This document shows positions 10,684-57,119 of a stretch of 64,000 nt of DNA, piece by piece. The notes beneath the pieces are model-generated. The model did not search any database. It was not told the DNA's origin and saw nothing but the letters and a program-made list of their open reading frames with translations. A program made the translations under genes and the position numbers. Source of the DNA: Flaviramulus sp. BrNp1-15 (GTDB lineage: Bacteria; Bacteroidota; Bacteroidia; Flavobacteriales; Flavobacteriaceae). Within the stretch, counting starts at the first letter, position 1; the number at the start of each line of letters is the position of its first letter. Where the stretch lies: NCBI RefSeq assembly GCF_022259695.1, contig NZ_CP092099.1:1224471-1288470 (forward strand). Direction: 5' to 3'.

Positions 10684-11409
10684 ATGTGTACGGTTACAAT
10701 TATTCCTAAAGCGGAAAATAATTTTGTGTTAACATCTAATAGAGATGAAGCGCCAAATAGAATATCGCTTGCTCCAGATTTTTATCAGGTAGAAAACACC
10801 AAACTGCTGTTTCCAAAAGATGAACTCTCTGGTGGTACTTGGATTGGGGTTAGTGATAAAAACAGATTGGTTTGTGTGCTTAATGGCGCTTTTGAATGCC
10901 ATGTTAGAAAAGCAGAATATAGAAAGAGTAGAGGTGTTGTTGCCAAAGATTTTATGGTTTCTGAAAATGTTATTACAACCATTGAAACCTATAGTTTAAT
11001 GGATATAGAACCGTTTACAATGGTAATTGCAGATTGGAATTCTACATTGCAATTCTATGAATTGGTTTGGGATGGTAACCAAAAACATATTTCAGAATTA
11101 CCTTTGGAGCCAAAAATTTGGTCGTCATCAACACTTTATAATCCGACTATGAAAAAAGAACGATTACAATGGTTTGAAAGCTTTAAAGCCGAAAATAATT
11201 TAAGTGCACAGTCTTTATTAAAATTCCATAAAGAATCCGGTAATGGTAATGAAGATTATGGTGTTATAATGAATCGTGGTTTTGTAAAAACCACAAGCAT
11301 CACACAAGTTGAAAAACAAAATGACGCTATAGCTATGCATTACGAAGGTCTTCAAAACAAAACAATTTCAAACAAAACATTCTACATTCCTCAAATAATT
11401 AATGAGTAG
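10684..11409 (+). CDS. NRDE-family protein (TANGO2-like, Ntn-hydrolase-like)
   Basis: 241 residues starting MCTVTIIPK. The family starts with Met-Cys, and the motif TSNRDEAPNR (N-R-D-E) follows at about residue 20. Cys2 is in the position of an N-terminal nucleophile. I chose the ATG at 10684 instead of the in-frame TTG at 10654 because it restores the conserved MC start and lies downstream of the probable promoter. The family (TANGO2/T10) is linked in eukaryotes to heme and lipid handling; the bacterial function is unsettled. It overlaps the next gene by 8 bases, indicating an operon. Confidence 0.85.
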   Translation: MCTVTIIPKAENNFVLTSNRDEAPNRISLAPDFYQVENTKLLFPKDELSGGTWIGVSDKNRLVCVLNGAFECHVRKAEYRKSRGVVAKDFMVSENVITTIETYSLMDIEPFTMVIADWNSTLQFYELVWDGNQKHISELPLEPKIWSSSTLYNPTMKKERLQWFESFKAENNLSAQSLLKFHKESGNGNEDYGVIMNRGFVKTTSITQVEKQNDAIAMHYEGLQNKTISNKTFYIPQIINE

Positions 11410-12394
11410 TACAGGTATTATTTTAACATTAGCGTACCCAGATACTATTGTTATGGTTTCTGAAGAATGGTTTTCTCCATATTTACGTTATTTAGGCGTT
11501 GGTAAAAAGAATTATTTACGCGCAGGACATGCAGCATTGGTTTTAATTAATAAGGAAAACGGTGTTTTAGAGTATCACGATTTTGGTCGTTACATCACGC
11601 CCGAACCTTCTGGAAGAGTTAGAGGAAGAGATACTGATAACGAATTACACTTTCCGTTAAAAGCCGAAATAGAAAACGACCAGATTAAAAACCTTGATGC
11701 TATTCTGGAATTTCTTGGAACACACCCAAAACTTACTCATGGCGATGGAAAATTAGTAGCATCAGTTTGTAATGCGGTAGATTACCAAAAAGCCAGAACA
11801 CATATTACAATGATGCAAAACAAGCATTTTATTCGTTATGCGGCATTTATAAAGGATGCTTGTAATTGTGCGCGTTTTGTAACCGATAGTTTGATTGCTT
11901 CTGTAACAGATAAAAGGATTAAAAAGAAACTTGAAAACTCTAAATGGTTTACACCAAGTACAGTTGGTAATGTGGTTTTAGCTGATACTGAAGATTATGT
12001 TTTTGAAGTATCTGAAGCTGGACAAATATCAAAATTTGAAGGCTCTCAACAAAGTGAAAACATCCGTTGTTTTTTAGATAAGTTAAAAGACCATGAGCCA
12101 ACTTTTGTGGGAACACTACATCCTAAACCAGTTGATGATTTGCATGAAAAAGCACAATGGTTATCTGGCATTGCAGCAGGAGCGTGGTTTGAGTTGCATA
12201 AAGTAGGGCATGATGTAGAGTATCATTTTAAGCGTATTTCGCCTTACGGAAATATTGATATTCATGAAAAGTTTGTTGTTGATGACGATTCGTTTGATTA
12301 CGATTTAGAATTTGAGTTTATACACTACTCCAACTGCAAATTTTTTCATGTAAAGCAGAATGAACGTGTTTATAGGTTTGAGAGAGTTGGGTGA
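11402..12394 (+). CDS. DUF6695-like protein, possible papain-fold hydrolase
   Basis: 330 residues, cytoplasmic (no signal peptide), overlapping the NRDE gene by 8 bases. The N-terminal ~170 residues show AGHAALVLIN (His43), EYHDFGRY and, later, DACNCARFVTDSLI (Cys154/Cys156). A His in an early strand followed by a helix-capping Cys is the order seen in circularly permuted papain-like (NlpC/P60, LRAT, YiiX) enzymes, so a thiol hydrolase is a reasonable guess. The C-terminal half (WLSGIAAGAWFELHKV..YHFKRISPYGNID) looks like a separate beta domain. Function unproven. Confidence 0.65.
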   Translation: MSSTGIILTLAYPDTIVMVSEEWFSPYLRYLGVGKKNYLRAGHAALVLINKENGVLEYHDFGRYITPEPSGRVRGRDTDNELHFPLKAEIENDQIKNLDAILEFLGTHPKLTHGDGKLVASVCNAVDYQKARTHITMMQNKHFIRYAAFIKDACNCARFVTDSLIASVTDKRIKKKLENSKWFTPSTVGNVVLADTEDYVFEVSEAGQISKFEGSQQSENIRCFLDKLKDHEPTFVGTLHPKPVDDLHEKAQWLSGIAAGAWFELHKVGHDVEYHFKRISPYGNIDIHEKFVVDDDSFDYDLEFEFIHYSNCKFFHVKQNERVYRFERVG

Positions 12395-12410
12395 TTTGAT
12401 GAGGCTTAAA

Positions 12411-12433
12411 AACAACAAACTAAACGTGTTGTT
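12411..12433. repeat. Short hairpin at the distal end of the cassette array
   Basis: AACAACAAAC and GTGTTGTT form a stem with one bulged base and a five-base loop. On the minus strand it follows the last cassette's 3' box (12431-12440), where a 139-bp repeat would be expected. It may be a minimal attC-like end left by recombination with the recipient, or simply a terminator for the plus-strand gene ending at 12394. Confidence 0.45.
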
Positions 12434-12445
12434 GATAAATCGTTT

Positions 12446-12919
12446 TTAATCGTTCTTTGTTTTATTATAAATCAAAATAACTGTAATTATCTCTCCTAAA
12501 TAATAGAATATTGATTGTGTAAAATATAAAATATAGTTTTTTCTTAAATATCCATAGTACTCTGTGAATCCTACGTTTTCTTTTCCAAATTCAAAAAATG
12601 ATTTTATTGAAGGATACGAAATTTGAACAATTTGAATAATGAAATAGGCAGAAAAACTCCAAATAAGATATTTTAGAATGTTTTCGCAAATTGTTTTATA
12701 ATTATCAAAAATCCAATTAATTAGATTGTTAATTAATATAACAAAAAGGATAAGGCCAACTAGTTCCGAAATCCAAAAAACCCAATAAGGTTGGGAGTCT
12801 AATGAAATTAGTAAATCCTTTGTGAAATCGGTAAAGCTATAACTTAAGCTAGAAATAAACTTATATGAAAATATTCCAAAACCGAAAAAACCAATTAATT
12901 CATTTCTTTTTATTTTCAA
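12446..12919 (-). CDS. Cassette gene 5: small membrane protein, unknown
   Basis: 157 residues, not recognised. Four hydrophobic segments can be seen (around residues 8-25, 45-65, 88-105 and 135-152), so it is an inner-membrane protein. The start is a TTG at 12919; no ATG lies upstream in frame before the cassette boundary. Last unit of the array, with 5' box GTTGGTAAAC and 3' box ATTTATCAAC (8/10 inverse). Atypically AT-rich. No promoter of its own seen. Confidence 0.7.
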   Translation of the reverse strand: MKIKRNELIGFFGFGIFSYKFISSLSYSFTDFTKDLLISLDSQPYWVFWISELVGLILFVILINNLINWIFDNYKTICENILKYLIWSFSAYFIIQIVQISYPSIKSFFEFGKENVGFTEYYGYLRKNYILYFTQSIFYYLGEIITVILIYNKTKND

Positions 12920-12949
12920 TGAGATTCAATTTAAGGTTTGAGTTTTAAT

Positions 12950-13087
12950 GTTTACCAACGTTTATGTATAAGATTTAGTTGCGGTTTTGTGTCCGAGGAT
13001 TTTCCGCAGGAAAATCAAAAGTTAACAAACGAGCAACTAACTTTGGTTTAACTAAAATCAGCATTTTTTTATATGGTGTTACCACAC
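12950..13087 (-). repeat. attC-like repeat A (138 bp)
   Basis: On the minus strand it runs from GTGTGGTAAC (13087-13078, overlapping the stop of the gene at 13079) to GTTGGTAAAC (12959-12950). Inside are an L-type pair (ATATAA / TTATAC), GTTGC / GCAAC, and an apical hairpin GATTTTCC-TGC-GGAAAATC. It carries the TGC apical loop shared with copy F, whereas B, C and D have TTC. Confidence 0.75.
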
Positions 13088-13720
13088 GTTTTTATTAATT
13101 CCGATCAGTTGTCTCATTACTTGATTATATCTGTATATAATTCGCATTTTACTTTGGCTGGGATTAAATATGTAAACATAATCCACTTTATAAGTTTCAG
13201 CTATTTCTTCGCGTCTTTGCGTCGTCTCATCTGTTGGCCAATCATAACCAACTAATAGAATGTTTTGCTTTCTAGCTTTGAAATCTATTTTAGCTTGCAG
13301 TTCACTATATTTATTTTGAAATTCAGGTTCAAGAACAGAATCTCTGTGAATTGCTATTTTTCTGTCGGAAATGCGAAGTTTTAATGTATCCGAAATATCT
13401 TTAGTTTCAAATTCAAATTGTCCGTTAAAAAAGGGTGAATGTTCATTTACTTTAATTTTGACTGAATCTTTCAAAGAAACACTAATTTTAAAATTCCCTA
13501 ATGAGTCAGTTTCCACTTCGGTTAAGCTGTCTTTTTGAAATAATTGAATTTTGCTTTTTCTTTTATTTAGATTTTTGGTGTATCTGTCATCAGTGTCTCT
13601 AAATAATGCGAATTTGGTAGCCTCTGATTTATAAAATTCCACTTTTCCAACTATTTCCTTTTGTGAGTAAAGACTTTGCTGGAAAATCAAAATGGTCAAT
13701 ATGAATAATATTTTTCTCAA
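13079..13720 (-). CDS. Cassette gene 4: exported protein with carboxypeptidase-regulatory-like fold, unknown
   Basis: 213 residues. A signal peptide (RKILFILTILIFQQSLYSQ) precedes a ~100-residue beta domain (VEFYKS..LTEVETDSLGNFKISVSLKDSVKIKV) resembling a carboxypeptidase-like regulatory sandwich. A C-terminal part follows (KQNILLVGYDWPTDETTQRREEIAETYKVDYVYIFNPSQ). The TTG start at 13720 is the conserved ATTTG just after the cassette's 5' box. The stop codon lies inside the 3' box of repeat A. Box complementarity 7/10. Function unknown. Confidence 0.72.
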   Translation of the reverse strand: MRKILFILTILIFQQSLYSQKEIVGKVEFYKSEATKFALFRDTDDRYTKNLNKRKSKIQLFQKDSLTEVETDSLGNFKISVSLKDSVKIKVNEHSPFFNGQFEFETKDISDTLKLRISDRKIAIHRDSVLEPEFQNKYSELQAKIDFKARKQNILLVGYDWPTDETTQRREEIAETYKVDYVYIFNPSQSKMRIIYRYNQVMRQLIGINKNVW

Positions 13721-13722
13721 AT

Positions 13723-13860
13723 TTGCGCTAACGTTTATGTATAAGGAAAGTTGCGTGTTTGTGTGCGAGGATTTTCCGAAGGAAAATCAGAAGTTAGCAA
13801 ACAAGCAACAAACTTTGGTTTAGCTAAAACTAGCAATTTTTTTATACGGTGTTGTAAAAC
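13723..13860 (-). repeat. attC-like repeat B (138 bp)
   Basis: Minus strand from GTTTTACAAC (13860-13851) to GTTAGCGCAA (13732-13723). Internal pairs GTATAA / TTATAC, GTTGC / GCAAC and the apical hairpin GATTTTCC-TTC-GGAAAATC. The 3' box of the unit ending here is the exact inverse of that unit's own 5' box GTTGTAAAAC at 14459-14450. Confidence 0.78.
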
Positions 13861-13874
13861 GTTTTTTATTATTT

Positions 13875-14447
13875 TTAAATTCCGCTCAATATAATTCCGA
13901 CAAATATTACAATCAACGAAGTCAAAAGAAACGGTTTTTTACTTTTATAAATATCCGAAATTAAATTCCAACAATACAAATAAATAAATATCGGAAACAT
14001 AAATCCCAAATAAGCAAAGTCCTTTTCAATTGTCAAATCTACTCCAGCAAAAAACCAAAACAATCGCAAAAGAAAAAATAATGTTCCAAATAAAATCCAA
14101 ATCGTATTAGTTTGAGCCATTCTCAATCTTATGTTTTTCTTTCTGTTAGTCCCAAAAGGTTTGCTCATCCACAAATAAGTTGTGAAACAAAATGAAAATC
14201 CAACTGAAGTAAAACCAATTAAAGTCAAATAATAAATTGAGAATTCATAACTATAGAAATTCGACCAGCTCAAGTCTGTGATAATTTCTCCAACATTGCA
14301 CATTTTTAAAAATACTCGAAGTAATGAATTAAAAATTAAGCTAAATCCGATTCCGATTGCAATTCCGCTATAAAATTGGAACTTTCCAATTTCGTTTATC
14401 GTGAAGTCAGATTTGAGTTTTTTCAATTCAGCGTATTGTTTGGTCAA
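13875..14447 (-). CDS. Cassette gene 3: polytopic membrane protein, unknown
   Basis: 190 residues, not recognised. Four hydrophobic stretches (IGKFQFYSGIAIGIGFSLIF; YYLTLIGFTSVGFSFCFTTY; WILFGTLFFLLRLFWFFAG; LLTSLIVIFVGIILS) indicate an integral membrane protein. The start is a TTG at 14447, the G of the ATTTG that follows the cassette 5' box GTTGTAAAAC. No in-frame ATG precedes it. Flanking boxes are a perfect 10/10 inverse pair. Confidence 0.7.
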   Translation of the reverse strand: MTKQYAELKKLKSDFTINEIGKFQFYSGIAIGIGFSLIFNSLLRVFLKMCNVGEIITDLSWSNFYSYEFSIYYLTLIGFTSVGFSFCFTTYLWMSKPFGTNRKKNIRLRMAQTNTIWILFGTLFFLLRLFWFFAGVDLTIEKDFAYLGFMFPIFIYLYCWNLISDIYKSKKPFLLTSLIVIFVGIILSGI

Positions 14448-14449
14448 AT

Positions 14450-14589
14450 GTTTTACAACGGTTACGTATATGAAATGTTGCGTGTTTGTGTGTGAGGATT
14501 TTCCGAAGGAAAATCAGATGCAAGCAAACAAAGCAACTCACATTGGTTAAGCACAAAATAGCAATTTTTTATATACAATGTTAGCATAC
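14450..14589 (-). repeat. attC-like repeat C (140 bp)
   Basis: Minus strand from GTATGCTAAC (14589-14580) to GTTGTAAAAC (14459-14450). The L-type pair is GTATAT / ATATAC here instead of GTATAA / TTATAC, a change on both sides that keeps pairing. Then GTTGC / GCAAC and the GATTTTCC-TTC-GGAAAATC apex. Confidence 0.78.
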
Positions 14590-14594
14590 GTTTT

Positions 14595-15119
14595 TTATAT
14601 TTTCATTCTGTTTAATAATTCCTCAATTTTCAAAGGGATTTTTTCGGTCGGTTTCGCAATCAAATTTTTAGGATAAGAGAAATTAATATTGATTACCTTT
14701 TTTTCATTACGATACGTATAAATAGTATGAGTCATTTCACCAAAATCCCTTTTCATTAAGAATATCAATCTTTTATATTCAATGCCTTGAAAATTTGTGT
14801 AATCTTCTTTGATAAGTTGATTCTCCGGAAGGTCTAAAAAGTGTATTTTTATTCCTTCAAAGTAGTCCTTGTCGGATATTAAATCTTTGGAGAAGTCAGG
14901 CTCTATTTTTACGGAAAAAGAAGAATAATCAGTTGAATCACTCAGCATGACTAGAACCATATCATCATTATCAATTGGTTTGCTTAATTCCCATTTGTCA
15001 TTGAAAACCAATTCTAAATCGAAATCAGAATATTTAGGTTTCCATGTTGTATGATTGTTTTTATTACAGGAAACCAAACATAAATTCAATGTTAAAATTA
15101 TTAGGATTATGCTTTTCAT
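14595..15119 (-). CDS. Cassette gene 2: small lipoprotein, unknown
   Basis: 174 residues. The lipobox is clear (LNLCLVSCNKN), so it is a cell-envelope lipoprotein. The rest is a mixed alpha/beta domain of the PsbP/DUF1795-like size (FDLELVFNDKWELSKPIDNDDMVLV.., TIYTYRNEKKVININFSYPK). I cannot name it. ATG start at 15119, 14 bases past the 5' box GTTAGCATAC, whose exact inverse begins repeat C. Confidence 0.72.
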   Translation of the reverse strand: MKSIILIILTLNLCLVSCNKNNHTTWKPKYSDFDLELVFNDKWELSKPIDNDDMVLVMLSDSTDYSSFSVKIEPDFSKDLISDKDYFEGIKIHFLDLPENQLIKEDYTNFQGIEYKRLIFLMKRDFGEMTHTIYTYRNEKKVININFSYPKNLIAKPTEKIPLKIEELLNRMKI

Positions 15120-15123
15120 AAAT

Positions 15124-15262
15124 GTATGCTAACGTTTATGTATAAGGAAAGTTGCGTGTTTGTGTGCGAGGATTTTCCGAAGGAAAATCAGACGCAAGCA
15201 AATGAGCAACTAACTTTGGCTAAGCTAAAAATAGCAATTTTTTTTATACGGTGTTACCACAC
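15124..15262 (-). repeat. attC-like repeat D (139 bp)
   Basis: Minus strand from GTGTGGTAAC (15262-15253) to GTTAGCATAC (15133-15124). Stem elements: GTATAA / TTATAC, GTTGC / GCAAC, TTTGCTTGCG / CGCACACAAA (8 of 10 paired) and GATTTTCC / GGAAAATC with loop TTC. It covers the start of an 97-codon plus-strand ORF that I regard as spurious. Confidence 0.78.
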
Positions 15263-15267
15263 GTTTT

Positions 15268-15831
15268 TTATCCTTGAATGTCAACATTGGTCAGTTCGTT
15301 TTTTTTGTTTAAGTCCGCAACAATTTGGTGACCCCAAAACAAGTTTCCGTCATCATACACCAATTCAGAACTCAAATCGCCAAAAAATAATATTGAACCT
15401 AATTTTATTCTATTTATAAAATCCCTTTCCGTTATTATAGATTCATTATCATTTAGCCAACTTTGATTTTTTAAGGGAAGTAGTTTTTTTGCGATTTGAC
15501 TATTTATTTCGTTTTTATTTTTTGATATCCAATTCAATTTTTGATTCAGTCCAATAATAAAATCGCTTTCACTCAACTCAATTTCCGAAGGATTGTATGT
15601 TATTTCAACTTTGTTTCCAAAAAGAATTGCACTCGTTGAATTCCTGTCATAATTTAATTCTTTATCTTCATTTATGCCTTTTTCTTCTTTCCATTTAGCA
15701 ACAGTTTTGGCAAATTCCTCGTTTATAGGCGGAGAAGATTCATCGTCATAAAATGAATCCGTTTCTGTTTTAAAATCAGATTTTTTAAGATTGAAATTTG
15801 GATTTTTACTAAATCTAGAAAATATTCCCAT
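15268..15831 (-). CDS. Cassette gene 1: cytoplasmic protein, unknown
   Basis: 187 residues, no signal peptide or membrane segment, rich in charged residues, not recognised (MGIFSRFSKNPNFNLKKSD start; SILFFGDLSSELVYDDGNLFWGHQIVADL near the end, similar in feel to DUF2262/DUF6985-type small domains, without certainty). First cassette of the array; 5' box GTTACCACAC (15855-15846) and 3' box GTGTGGTAAC (15262-15253) are perfect inverses. Confidence 0.7.
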   Translation of the reverse strand: MGIFSRFSKNPNFNLKKSDFKTETDSFYDDESSPPINEEFAKTVAKWKEEKGINEDKELNYDRNSTSAILFGNKVEITYNPSEIELSESDFIIGLNQKLNWISKNKNEINSQIAKKLLPLKNQSWLNDNESIITERDFINRIKLGSILFFGDLSSELVYDDGNLFWGHQIVADLNKKNELTNVDIQG

Positions 15832-15852
15832 TGTGTATTTTAAATGTGTGGT

Positions 15853-15870
15853 AACTCAAGGATATGAGTT
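15853..15870. repeat. Palindrome at the entry end of the cassette array
   Basis: AACTCA-AGGATA-TGAGTT, perfect 6-bp arms around 6 bases. On the minus strand it places an ATATC box and five bases before the GTT of the first cassette, the same arrangement seen before the single cassettes at 46055 and 57958. It could be a recombination half-site; it is too short to call more. Confidence 0.45.
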
Positions 15871-15900: not shown

Positions 15901-16287
15901 CTAGTTTATAGCAAACGAAGCGCTTAGTTTAAAAGTAGGTATGGTAACTTTAAACTTTTTAGTGGTGGTAAAGTTTACCATATCGTAATGCCCTTGCATA
16001 GCACCAAAAGGTGAGGTAAGTAAGCAACCCGAAGAGTAGGTATGAGATTCGCCTGGTTTTAACACGGGTTTTTTACCAATAACGCCTTCGCCGGTTACTA
16101 CTTCTACATTATTTAAAGCGTCTAAAATTTCCCAGTGGCGCGCATTAAGTTGTACAGAATCTTTGCTTTGGTTTTCTATAGTAATGGTGTAACCAAAGGC
16201 AAATTGTATTTTATAATTTTTATAAAACGAGCCTTCGTAGGTAGTGTCTACCGAAATTTTTATCCCTTTTGTTACTTGTTGAACCAT
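15901..16287 (-). CDS. apaG: ApaG domain protein
   Basis: 128 residues from the ATG at 16287, which matches the usual ApaG length; the longer frame begins at a TTG and adds eight unlikely residues. Fibronectin-type beta-sandwich with the family marks YTITIENQSKDSVQL, HWEI, GVIGKKPVLKPGESHTYSSG and MQGHYDMV. ApaG is associated with cobalt/magnesium resistance and diadenosine tetraphosphate phenotypes in enterobacteria; its biochemical role is unresolved. The cassette array begins right behind its 3' end. Confidence 0.92.
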   Translation of the reverse strand: MVQQVTKGIKISVDTTYEGSFYKNYKIQFAFGYTITIENQSKDSVQLNARHWEILDALNNVEVVTGEGVIGKKPVLKPGESHTYSSGCLLTSPFGAMQGHYDMVNFTTTKKFKVTIPTFKLSASFAIN

Positions 16288-16394
16288 GTTAACTATTAAT
16301 AAACCATGCAATTACGCGGGCTAAAATAAGAAATATAAAGCAGTTGATGATAAATTTTAACGTATTGAGTTGAAAAATTAGTTAAACAACACTA

Positions 16395-17645
16395 TTAATT
16401 CGAGATATTAACCGAACTACCTTCGCCAAAACCTATTATTTTATCGTAGCGAGCGCCTAAATCTCTGTAATATACAAGCACTTTATAATTGTTTTCGGTT
16501 TGGTAAAAATTTCCACTAACAAAACCTTCATCAATAGACTTATCGTTATTATCTACAACAAATTTGTAATTGTAAAACCCTTGTTTAAGTAACATGGTGT
16601 TTTGGTAAACGTTATTGTCTGGGTTATATGTCATTTTAGTGCTTTCATCTGTGGTGTAATTGTTGAAATTACCATACACATGAATGTTTTTGCCTTGTAA
16701 AGCTTCGTTAGCTAGTAAAGAAAAGTGTACCCAAACATAATCTGCTTCAATACTTGGGTCGTCTGCATCAATATTTAAAATCACATAATTTCCATTAATA
16801 TCCGGGTTGTATGTATAAGGATTATTTGCTCTTTGAATATTCGTGTATAGATAATTGTGATATAAATCTTGTAAATCTATATACTGAATGCCTGTATTTG
16901 CGGCTCTAATGTCTTTGTTTTCAAAATAGAAATATTCATTTCCGCCCCAAAAACTCGTCTCATTATCATATTTATAAATAAGTTGATTGCCAACAGTGTA
17001 TTGCGGTTTTATGTTTGAAATGGCTGTTTTTAAGTTGTTGTTTTGAACTATTACGGTTTTTATAGTTTGATTTGGGTTGTTAAGCTGCATACGGTTTGAA
17101 GCAATAACAATTTCTACACGTTGTTTTTCTTCAATATATTGAAGATCGCGCGCTCTTTTAATATTAACGCCCACATTTACTTCGTTTTCATAAATCATGA
17201 ATTTTCTTGAGAAAACAAGTTCATCGTCATTATTATAAATAGAAAGTAAGTAATTACCAGAAACAAGAAGCCCTTTTGTAAATTGATTTGGGATAGTTAG
17301 TTTGTAATGTGAGTATATTTGATAGGTGTTATATGAATTCTCGTAATTACGTATGCGCTGATTATCAAATCCATTTAAGTATTCAGATTTCATTAAAACT
17401 GAAGGAGTCCAGTCGTAATTGAAATGTTCAAGTTTATAGTAATAATCTTCTTCATCACCATTTAATGCATCAAACTCTAAAACCACATATTCCCCTAATC
17501 TTAAAATAGGCAATTGTGTTTCTGGGGTATTGCCTTTAAAGTTTATGGTTTTAATATAGTCTGGAGGGTTTACTTCTTCAACTTGAGAAAAAGAAATTAA
17601 AGGCAGAAAAACAAAGAGAATAATTTGTTTAAACTTTATAAGCAT
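16395..17645 (-). CDS. Type IX secretion Plug-type protein (DUF5103)
   Basis: 416 residues from the ATG at 17645, which gives a clean signal peptide (LIKFKQIILFVFLPLISFSQ); the ORF extension upstream adds 13 residues in front of it. The sequence YIKTINFKGNTPETQLPIL, the paired motifs EDYYYKLEHFNYDW and the C-terminal YYRDLGARYDKIIGFG are those of DUF5103 proteins. A member of this family (Plug) closes the SprA translocon of T9SS from the periplasmic side. It fits the T9SS cargo encoded at 754-5682. Divergent from nqrA. Confidence 0.85.
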   Translation of the reverse strand: MLIKFKQIILFVFLPLISFSQVEEVNPPDYIKTINFKGNTPETQLPILRLGEYVVLEFDALNGDEEDYYYKLEHFNYDWTPSVLMKSEYLNGFDNQRIRNYENSYNTYQIYSHYKLTIPNQFTKGLLVSGNYLLSIYNNDDELVFSRKFMIYENEVNVGVNIKRARDLQYIEEKQRVEIVIASNRMQLNNPNQTIKTVIVQNNNLKTAISNIKPQYTVGNQLIYKYDNETSFWGGNEYFYFENKDIRAANTGIQYIDLQDLYHNYLYTNIQRANNPYTYNPDINGNYVILNIDADDPSIEADYVWVHFSLLANEALQGKNIHVYGNFNNYTTDESTKMTYNPDNNVYQNTMLLKQGFYNYKFVVDNNDKSIDEGFVSGNFYQTENNYKVLVYYRDLGARYDKIIGFGEGSSVNISN

Positions 17646-17765
17646 TATTAAGGTGTTTTGCGTGTAAAGATAAACAAAATCCATGCCTAAACTTTTTCAT
17701 TTATTTAGAATGAATATAAATAAATAAGTTGCAAAAATTTGAATGTATTTATGGCTATTAATTCG

Positions 17766-43775: not shown

Positions 43776-43887
43776 TTGTTCGTGTATTACTAGTAGCGAA
43801 TTTTGGAACGCTAACTTTTTGGTTTGGTAAAGACCTCTGTTTATATGTTTGTTGTTCCTGTTTAGTACTTCAACCACTATTATTTCT

Positions 43888-45168: not shown

Positions 45169-45178
45169 TTTTTCTAAT

Positions 45179-45315
45179 TGTGGCTAACGGTTTTATGTAT
45201 GATTAGTGGCGTATTCAAGAACCTAATTTAGCAAATAAAAACCGAATAGAAAATCCGTGAGGATTTTCGTAAGCATGCGAGAACTAGCCATTAATTATAG
45301 ACGTTGTTGCCAGTA
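45179..45315 (-). repeat. attC-like repeat E (137 bp)
   Basis: Minus strand from TACTGGCAAC (45315-45306) to GTTAGCCACA (45188-45179). TTAATGGC / GCCACTAA pair 7 of 8. The apical hairpin is GAAAATCC-TCAC-GGATTTTC, the same shape as in copies A-D and F but with the arms' sequence exchanged. The 3' box is a perfect inverse of GTTGCCAGTA at 46055-46046 and lies inside the end of the coding region. Confidence 0.7.
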
Positions 45316-46054
45316 GTTTTTATTTTCCAAGCACTATCAATTAGTGAAACTTCAAATTTGTCGCCAACATTGACTTCATTCATAAAAATTTCAGTTTTAG
45401 GATGGTTTTTAGTCAGAATTTTTACTTTAAAATATGCGCCAAGAGAGTCCTTTTCGTAAAATTTATCGGTAATTACTCCGTCAATTGATAAATCAAAGGA
45501 CTTTCGGAATTCCCAATCTAAATTAGGACATCCATAATAGACAACACTATTATTTTTACTAACAGGCATTTTCACATTAATAGTGTCATTAACCTCAAAC
45601 TTGTTGTATTTTTCTAAACCAATGATTTTTTGCTCTTTTACACATTCTACATAAGGTTTTTCACTTATTATTATTTCATTGACTTTGTCTTGTATGTCAA
45701 TATTTTCATTATTAAGATGTTGATGATAAGAATATAATATTAATCCAGACATATAATCATAGTGAGTTATTCCTAATGAATTGAAATAAGCTACAATAGT
45801 ATCCGATTTTGAGTGATGTCGTAATAAATTATTTCTCAAGTGTAATCCGATTCCAAAATGTAAATTATTCGGTGTTGTATCGTTTTTCTTTATGTTTTTA
45901 AAAACTTCGATATCTTCAGGACTCCAAACTTCATTTAGATACTCAAAAGAATATTCCAGTTCTTTGGGAATTTCCTCTTTTCTATTACAAGATAGAAGTG
46001 AAAATATGGTAAGAATTAGGATTAGTTTTCTCAATATGTTCAAATTACTGGCAA
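45188..46054 (-). mobile_element. Single integron-like cassette (DUF6794-like gene)
   Basis: 867 bp on the minus strand from the TT of 5' box GTTGCCAGTA to the G before the next GTT. Contains one gene (45291-46043) and repeat E. Own boxes match 10/10. Upstream on the minus strand is the half-site GAACTTCATTTAAC followed by GATAT..ATATC, as at the 58-kb locus. Confidence 0.65.
45291..46043 (-). CDS. Cassette-borne lipoprotein, DUF6794-like
   Basis: 250 residues. Signal with lipobox (LTIFSLLSCNRK). The segment YLNEVWSPEDIEVFKNIKKND..LHFGIGLHLRNNLLRHHSKSD..YFNSLGITHYDYMSGLIL is what I remember as DUF6794. A C-terminal beta domain (PKTEIFMNEVNVGDKFEVSLIDSAWKI) follows. TTG start at 46043, again the ATTTG next to the 5' box. 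The last codons and stop run into the 3' box of repeat E. Confidence 0.72.
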   Translation of the reverse strand: MNILRKLILILTIFSLLSCNRKEEIPKELEYSFEYLNEVWSPEDIEVFKNIKKNDTTPNNLHFGIGLHLRNNLLRHHSKSDTIVAYFNSLGITHYDYMSGLILYSYHQHLNNENIDIQDKVNEIIISEKPYVECVKEQKIIGLEKYNKFEVNDTINVKMPVSKNNSVVYYGCPNLDWEFRKSFDLSIDGVITDKFYEKDSLGAYFKVKILTKNHPKTEIFMNEVNVGDKFEVSLIDSAWKIKTTGNNVYN

Positions 46055-46130
46055 CAACTCGATATGAAATCGTTTTAATGTTTTATATCTAATGTTAAAT
46101 GAAGTTCAACTATTTTTTTGAGAAAGTCAA
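46046..46130 (-). repeat. Cassette entry site with left recipient half-site
   Basis: Minus strand order: TTCTCAAAAAAA, GAACTTCATTTAAC (46106-46094 as GTTAAATGAAGTT on plus), four bases, GATAT, ~19 bases, ATATC, five bases, GTTGCCAGTA (5' box of the cassette). The same order occurs at 58030-57944, and the first part at 8812-8772. Confidence 0.6.
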
Positions 46131-56961: not shown

Positions 56962-56976
56962 TAATATTTTAAAAAG

Positions 56977-57119
56977 TTCGTTTAACGGTTACGTATAAGA
57001 ATAGTGCGGTTTTGTGTCCGAGGATTTTCCGCAGGAAAATCAGACGTAACAAAAATGCACGACTCTTTGATTAAGCACTAAACTACGCATTATTTTTATA
57101 CAATGTTACACACTGTAGC
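56977..57119 (-). repeat. attC-like repeat F (143 bp)
   Basis: Minus strand: 3' box GTGTGTAAC at 57113-57105 (extended GCTACA before it), GTATAA / TTATAC, GTGC / GCAC where copies A-D have GTTGC / GCAAC, apex GATTTTCC-TGC-GGAAAATC, then GTTAAACGAA at 56986-56977. The change of both stem sides keeps the pairing. Confidence 0.75.

Follow-up and report, generated by a model that had tools for sequence, protein, structure and literature searches.

A seemingly widespread integron-like system of Bacteroidia whose apparent recombinase lacks the part thought to enable integrons

What moves a row of small genes that is laid out like the cassettes of an integron and has no integrase beside it? The question is raised by a minus-strand array at positions 12411-15870 of a 64,000-nt stretch of the chromosome of Flaviramulus sp. 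BrNp1-15 (NZ_CP092099.1, positions 1,224,471 to 1,288,470), hereafter the window. A preliminary description, made from the letters alone, had interpreted it as a mobile, integron-like cassette array. The array consists of five units, four sites of about 119 nt and 10-nt boxes that are specific to each unit. It is very probably a detached array, resembling a CALIN (cluster of attC sites lacking integron-integrases), of an integron-like system of the class Bacteroidia, whose platform comprises a tyrosine recombinase, here called IntX, an attI-like junction and a long cassette array.

The cassette array in the window

Each unit carries one open reading frame (ORF), a start box (R') and an end box (R''). 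A site extends from the R'' box of one unit to the R' box of the next. The features of the array are as follows.

15846-15855, minus strand: left array edge, the first R' box, without an R'' box upstream
15133-15854, minus strand: cassette 1, DUF2262-domain protein (ORF 15268-15831); start box GTTACCACAC (15846-15855), end box GTGTGGTAAC (15253-15262), pairing at 10/10 positions
15124-15262, minus strand: attC-like site S1 (R'' to R'), 105.5 bits with the model R2 described below
14459-15132, minus strand: cassette 2, 174-aa probable lipoprotein (ORF 14595-15119); start box GTTAGCATAC (15124-15133), end box GTATGCTAAC (14580-14589), 10/10
14450-14589, minus strand: attC-like site S2
13732-14458, minus strand: cassette 3, 190-aa probable membrane protein (ORF 13875-14447); start box GTTGTAAAAC (14450-14459), end box GTTTTACAAC (13851-13860), 10/10
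13723-13860, minus strand: attC-like site S3
12959-13731, minus strand: cassette 4, 213-aa protein (ORF 13079-13720, stop codon inside its own end box); start box GTTAGCGCAA (13723-13732), end box GTGTGGTAAC (13078-13087), 7/10
12950-13087, minus strand: attC-like site S4
12411-12958, minus strand: cassette 5, 157-aa probable membrane protein (ORF 12446-12919); start box GTTGGTAAAC (12950-12959), end box ATTTATCAAC (12431-12440), 8/10; truncated 3' site
12400-12440, minus strand: right array edge, the last R'' box followed by a truncated site

Between the boxes, S1 to S4 have a mean column identity of 86% on alignment, and they were also recovered as a direct-repeat family. An Rfam search of the window region gave no match above threshold. 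The boxes of units 1 to 5 match within their own unit at 10, 10, 10, 7 and 8 of 10 positions, compared with 8, 6, 4 and 6 when the end box of one unit is set against the start box of the next, that is, within a site. The true assignment is the joint best of 120 permutations, with one tie because two units have the same end box. All ten boxes were found where the preliminary description had placed them, and its claims that they pair within units and are 10 rather than 7 nt long hold good. Its six repeats have to be reduced to four complete inter-gene sites, since at the first boundary there is a start box alone and the final site is truncated. The absence of an integrase is true of the window and not of the genome, which encodes IntX elsewhere on the same chromosome. 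Five units are thin evidence alone, and the box rule is therefore decided by the 17-unit array linked to this recombinase.

A recombinase-linked array and the structure of its sites

IntX is a 376-aa protein encoded outside the window (C1:2886557-2887687). Its stop codon is followed after 44 nt by the first start box of a 17-site array on the same strand, which extends to C1:2903106. In the 3.58-Mb chromosome, a covariance model built on S1 to S4 (R1) found 39 sites at E<0.1, many of them in one cluster just behind IntX. R1 proved too narrow, with fewer strong matches, and a general model (R2) was used instead. R2 finds 52 sites in the Flaviramulus genome and is usable as a search model for IntX-type sites on any genome. 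Within the 17 platform units, the six variable box positions pair in 98 of 102 cases, a value never attained in 100,000 permutations (mean 36.5, maximum 69). The site caller made no use of these six positions, so the test is not circular. The window and platform arrays are tied together by S2 (14450-14589), whose core is 99% identical to the core of a platform site (L008:15176-15315), with a different gene and a different box pair. Site cores seem to homogenise or to be exchanged, the boxes staying with the gene.

Sites in other genomes follow the same plan. Among 97 sites of 16 arrays, the R'' side consists of a box with YAAC at its end, a spacer of 2-3 nt (mostly AAY or ACC) and the L arm; on the R' side, the L arm is followed by a spacer of 5-6 nt, a C and GTTRNNNNNMA, mostly then T. 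The start boxes of 214 cassettes comprise 102 different 10-mers, and 16 of the 214 fit the GTTRRRY consensus. Pairing of at least 8 positions is found within the own unit in 222 of 264 units, versus 44 of 264 for pairing within a site. These sites were called by a simple rule (an exact L stem, 95-150 nt) that missed the short sites of Hymenobacteraceae, later found by covariance model. Rufibacter arrays have such short sites (50-54 nt) with the same box rule; on the Rufibacter chromosome and plasmid (L149, L258) they come near the length of classical attC and accompany a recombinase of the same clade.

Canonical attC sites are recombined as a folded bottom strand. The sites described here share the attC-type features of R''/R' and L''/L' pairing, spacers, a hairpin and bottom-strand preference, with boxes that are longer and not GTTRRRY. 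The bottom strand of the reconstituted joint is predicted to be more stable than the top strand in 118 of 120 cases (DNA energy parameters), with the R box paired in 118 of 120 own joints versus 23 of 120 hybrid chromosomal sites. In an alignment of 58 sites (A4), helix 2, which was never used in site calling, has both partners substituted at 4 of 5 pairs, with only 2 one-sided cells and almost no G-T intermediates. RNA helices are normally rich in G-U intermediates, and their scarcity in helix 2 favours a DNA hairpin over an RNA.

Whole-length copies of cassettes allow the boundaries to be located. The 264 cassettes include 66 copy pairs in 12 families. Identity between copies is 98% over the final 50 nt of a cassette and 97% over its initial 50 nt, and falls to 40% and 38% immediately beyond the edges. 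The TT past the crossover is common to all pairs (100%). Judging from these edges, cassettes are exchanged with a crossover at G|TT. One cassette of 557 bp occurs 11 times across two arrays of a single genome (G014) that lie about 500 kb apart, and close copies are found in different genera (G017 and G006, 89%; G034 and Algibacter onchidii, 86%). G000 and G017 share a homologous cassette whose box pairs differ between the two genomes, each pair being self-complementary. Cassette ORFs run along the site orientation in 197 cases and against it in 11. Among the recognisable families are GNAT acetyltransferases, immunity proteins, AbiEii, PtuA and HerA-like proteins, defence genes included, and about half of the cassette ORFs (A5) have a hydrophobic segment. 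The two G014 arrays (L102, L218-L221) are about 40-50 kb each, with 80 sites called in the stretches read, which is superintegron scale.

The window array itself is, to judge by gene order in relatives, an insertion between two otherwise adjacent genes.

11402-12394, plus strand: conserved flanking gene for a TseH-like/DUF6695 protein, directly next to apaG in nine relatives
15901-16311, minus strand: conserved flanking gene apaG, then a DUF5103 homologue (16395-17684)

The conserved order is ALDH, TANGO2-like, TseH/DUF6695-like, apaG and DUF5103. In the nine relatives, the TseH-like gene is followed directly by apaG, with gaps from about 10 to 450 bp; in the Flaviramulus genome the two are separated by the 3.5-kb array. 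The locus is thus empty in these relatives, and the same five genes in the same order are not found there. Two further traces of cassettes lie in the window.

45177-46055, minus strand: second, separate cassette (ORF 45291-46043); boxes GTTGCCAGTA/TACTGGCAAC pairing at 10/10; complete site 45177-45317
56975-57116, minus strand: isolated attC-like site, no partner box found within 3.5 kb

The former is a single insertion; the next unit is without an end site and has a degenerate match at 43788-43885. The latter is possibly a remnant.

IntX and its distribution

IntX has the conserved catalytic residues R-K-HxxR-H-Y of tyrosine recombinases. Its core is nearest to archaeal XerA by both structure and sequence, and it scores 238.6 bits with the NCBIfam model of archaeal XerA (cut-off 220). 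With the IntI family model TIGR02249 it reaches 203.4 bits over the whole protein and 126.6 bits in its best stretch, below the cut-off of 265; no IntI above this cut-off was found in the Flaviramulus genome, where 203.4 bits over the whole protein was the best match. KGxKxR and HxLRH are separated by 106 residues in all 28 IntI proteins and by 63-69 residues (median 64) in 89 proteins of the IntX clade, indicating that the IntI-specific insert of about 42 residues (the I2 helix/patch) is absent from the clade. In a tree built by a quick method and with several open forks, IntI forms one fully supported clade and the IntX-type proteins a separate, mainly Bacteroidota group. The Flaviramulus genome has separate XerC/D-like genes, and IntX is therefore probably not the universal dif resolvase.

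Most IntX proteins have about 100 extra residues at the N-terminus. A Pfam search with this domain of the first member gave no meaningful match, one member matches HARP weakly (E=0.0018), and a sequence search of PDB with the N-terminal profile found no relative. Because a structure search with the whole model returned mostly Xer, IntI and Cre-type recombinases, the domain was predicted alone (predicted local distance difference test score 81). The nearest structure is the XPB damage-recognition domain (DRD; Z 6.2 over 56 residues), and the SMARCAL1 HARP domain is also matched (Z 4.0, root-mean-square deviation 2.1 over 49 residues); both matches are weak.

Arrays are located downstream of IntX and on the same strand in Winogradskyella, Seonamhaeicola, Algibacter, Zunongwangia, Rufibacter and several metagenome-assembled genomes. 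R2 detected 79 sites in 636 kb around recombinases of the IntX clade, nearly all on the recombinase strand, and 1 site in 510 kb around other XerA-like recombinases outside the clade. Around IntI loci it gave no match, which is weak evidence since only short flanks (110 kb in all) were covered. At least 3 sites are present in 35 of 37 relatives with IntX versus 3 of 23 without (60 relatives, p=8e-11), and in a sample of 149 genomes drawn evenly from the class Bacteroidia, 88 (about 60%) have IntX and 105 have sites, the sites being present in 80 of 88 genomes with IntX versus 25 of 61 without (p=6e-11), kinship being ignored in both tests. Matches to XerC/D-type recombinases are near-universal among the genomes, and IntX occurs only in some. 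True IntI over the cut-off is found in 84 of 296 Bacteroidota genomes, all but one outside the class Bacteroidia.

In most arrays examined, 27-178 nt separate the IntX stop codon from the first R' box. The closest relatives have a palindrome such as ATAAACACACTAGTGTGTTTAT about 6 nt before this box; in the other IntX branch, the junction resembles ATATAACNA|GTTR. The junction between IntX and array thus resembles attI and is a candidate for its counterpart.

Plasmids of Rufibacter tibetensis and of a Chryseobacterium carry an IntX-type recombinase followed by small genes and sites on the same strand. The Chryseobacterium plasmid array (L259) contains an IS110-family transposase and a group II intron reverse transcriptase; for both, relatives that target classical attC sites are known. 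Many Acinetobacter plasmids encode a recombinase (TnpF in one record) that is 54% identical to IntX over the C-terminal 230 residues.

Weighing the explanations

The four window sites lie within 2.3 kb with no recombinase nearby; accepted as attC, they make the array a CALIN by the usual definition (at least two attC less than 4 kb apart). The array might then hold attC cassettes of a classical IntI integron whose IntI has been lost or acts in trans. This would explain the site layout, the G|TT crossover, the cassette layout and the bottom-strand bias, which are the same; CALINs do occur without integrases, and true IntI is common elsewhere in the phylum. However, the Flaviramulus genome has no IntI over the cut-off, the IntI matches lie outside Bacteroidia with one exception, very few R' boxes fit GTTRRRY, and the sites track IntX, adjacency included, all of which makes a canonical CALIN quite improbable. 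The CALIN label of the preliminary description therefore stands for a detached array without a nearby recombinase, and falls for a CALIN of the canonical IntI system. With no IntI over the cut-off and a linked recombinase that is outside the IntI clade and without its insert, the array is better regarded as belonging, in detached form, to a distinct integron-like system.

The sites could also be intergenic repeats, such as terminators, elements like repetitive extragenic palindromes (REP) or miniature inverted-repeat transposable elements (MITE), or RNA elements, that spread by copying while the genes merely look like units. The cores are indeed repetitive, some are near-identical between different genes, and several have strong hairpins. 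Yet the boxes pair across the ends of a gene unit and not inside the element, the helices change without G-U intermediates, Rfam has no match above threshold, and whole cassettes are copied, gene included, with edges at G|TT. We find this explanation hardly credible. Alternatively, the cassettes could be genuine and IntX only their neighbour, the mobilising enzyme being XerC/D-like or a transposase; sites without IntX in two genomes (G019 and G048) and the near-universal XerC/D-type recombinases would fit. Against this, in many genera IntX lies immediately upstream and is oriented alike, sites are missing at the loci of other XerA-like recombinases, and XerC/D is near-universal and the sites are not. 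We regard it as improbable.

A detached array of an IntX-linked system also agrees with what the preliminary description led one to expect. A mobile cassette array in Bacteroidota is supported by the copies, the insertion and the boundaries. The sites are many (dozens per genome); a tyrosine recombinase, IntX, adjoins arrays in many genera; gene content at the locus varies between relatives; the complementarity of the boxes is far above that of a shuffled control; and the 66 copy pairs lose homology at G|TT, the proposed crossover by which every cassette acquires a box pair of its own.

Several observations weigh against this reading. The role of IntX as catalyst of cassette recombination is inferred from linkage, and both co-occurrence p-values ignore shared ancestry. 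Sites are present without IntX in some genomes (38 sites in G019; G048), and IntX is present with few or no sites in G049 and G008. In G019, IntX may have been lost, may lie on a missing contig, or another recombinase may be at work. No convincing attI was found at the window array. The L helix (helix 1) shows the same covariation pattern as helix 2 in a partly circular manner, because site calling demanded an exact L stem. In G034, which has arrays, the N-terminal domain was not detected, suggesting that the domain may be dispensable.

If the IntX system operates as its sites suggest, a cassette would leave the array in circular form, its site would fold as the bottom strand with R'' paired to its own R', and IntX would cut between G and TT and join the cassette to the attI-like junction or to another site. 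R' would then travel with the start of the cassette and R'' with its end. Since the R box varies freely yet always pairs, recognition would rest on shape, the fixed GTTR/YAAC, the spacers and the L stem. The HARP/XPB-DRD-like N-terminal domain might conceivably read the folded DNA in place of the I2 helix of IntI. The window array was probably placed by IntX in trans at a secondary site.

We lean, by a little, towards the wider view that integrons evolved twice, and that a convergent integron exists in Bacteroidia, where a Xer-type recombinase without I2 acts on folded single-stranded sites, a HARP/XPB-like DNA-structure-recognition domain replaces I2, and the whole serves as the main gene-capture platform of the class. 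The I2 helix has been described as necessary for cassette capture, as conferring single-strand recombination and as absent from all proteins except integron integrases (PMC7790495). In Bacteroidetes proper, the IntegronFinder 2.0 survey found a single complete integron, in Salinibacter (PMC9024848). Both statements would need revision if IntX moves cassettes. A search of the open-access literature, with preprints and most subscription journals outside it, found no description of integrons in Bacteroidia or of integron-like systems without IntI, and a prior description elsewhere is possible. If IntX does move the cassettes, there would be a second, independently built integron machinery, with IntX in about 60% of the Bacteroidia sample (88/149), related recombinases on plasmids, and a large pool of unknown cassette genes besides acetyltransferases, immunity and defence genes. 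It would be a second route to one of the main gene-collecting devices of bacteria, and how a double-strand recombinase gains folded single-strand substrates would become testable by comparing the two solutions.

Judged by its sites and layout, the IntX system appears to work like an integron. Like IntI integrons and superintegrons (class 1; Vibrio chromosomal), it has a recombinase gene, an attI-like junction, dozens of single-gene cassettes in one orientation, hairpin sites of the R''/L''/L'/R' type, a G|TT crossover and a bottom-strand bias. It does not belong to the IntI integron family, since IntX falls outside the IntI clade and is without the IntI-specific insert. Most IntX proteins have instead the HARP/XPB-like N-terminal domain, the boxes are 10 nt long and freely varying (GTTRNNNNNMA) rather than GTTRRRY, the IntX gene points along the cassettes, and a palindrome marks the attI-like junction in the closest relatives. 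The window array likewise consists of sites and cassettes without a nearby recombinase, as a CALIN does, but its sites are of the IntX type and its presumed recombinase is elsewhere on the same chromosome. Among XerA, XerC and XerD, the IntX core comes nearest to archaeal XerA, from which IntX differs in its extra N-terminal domain and its linkage to cassette arrays. The predicted fold of that domain weakly resembles the HARP domain of SMARCAL1 and the damage-recognition domain of XPB, which, unlike it, belong to helicases.

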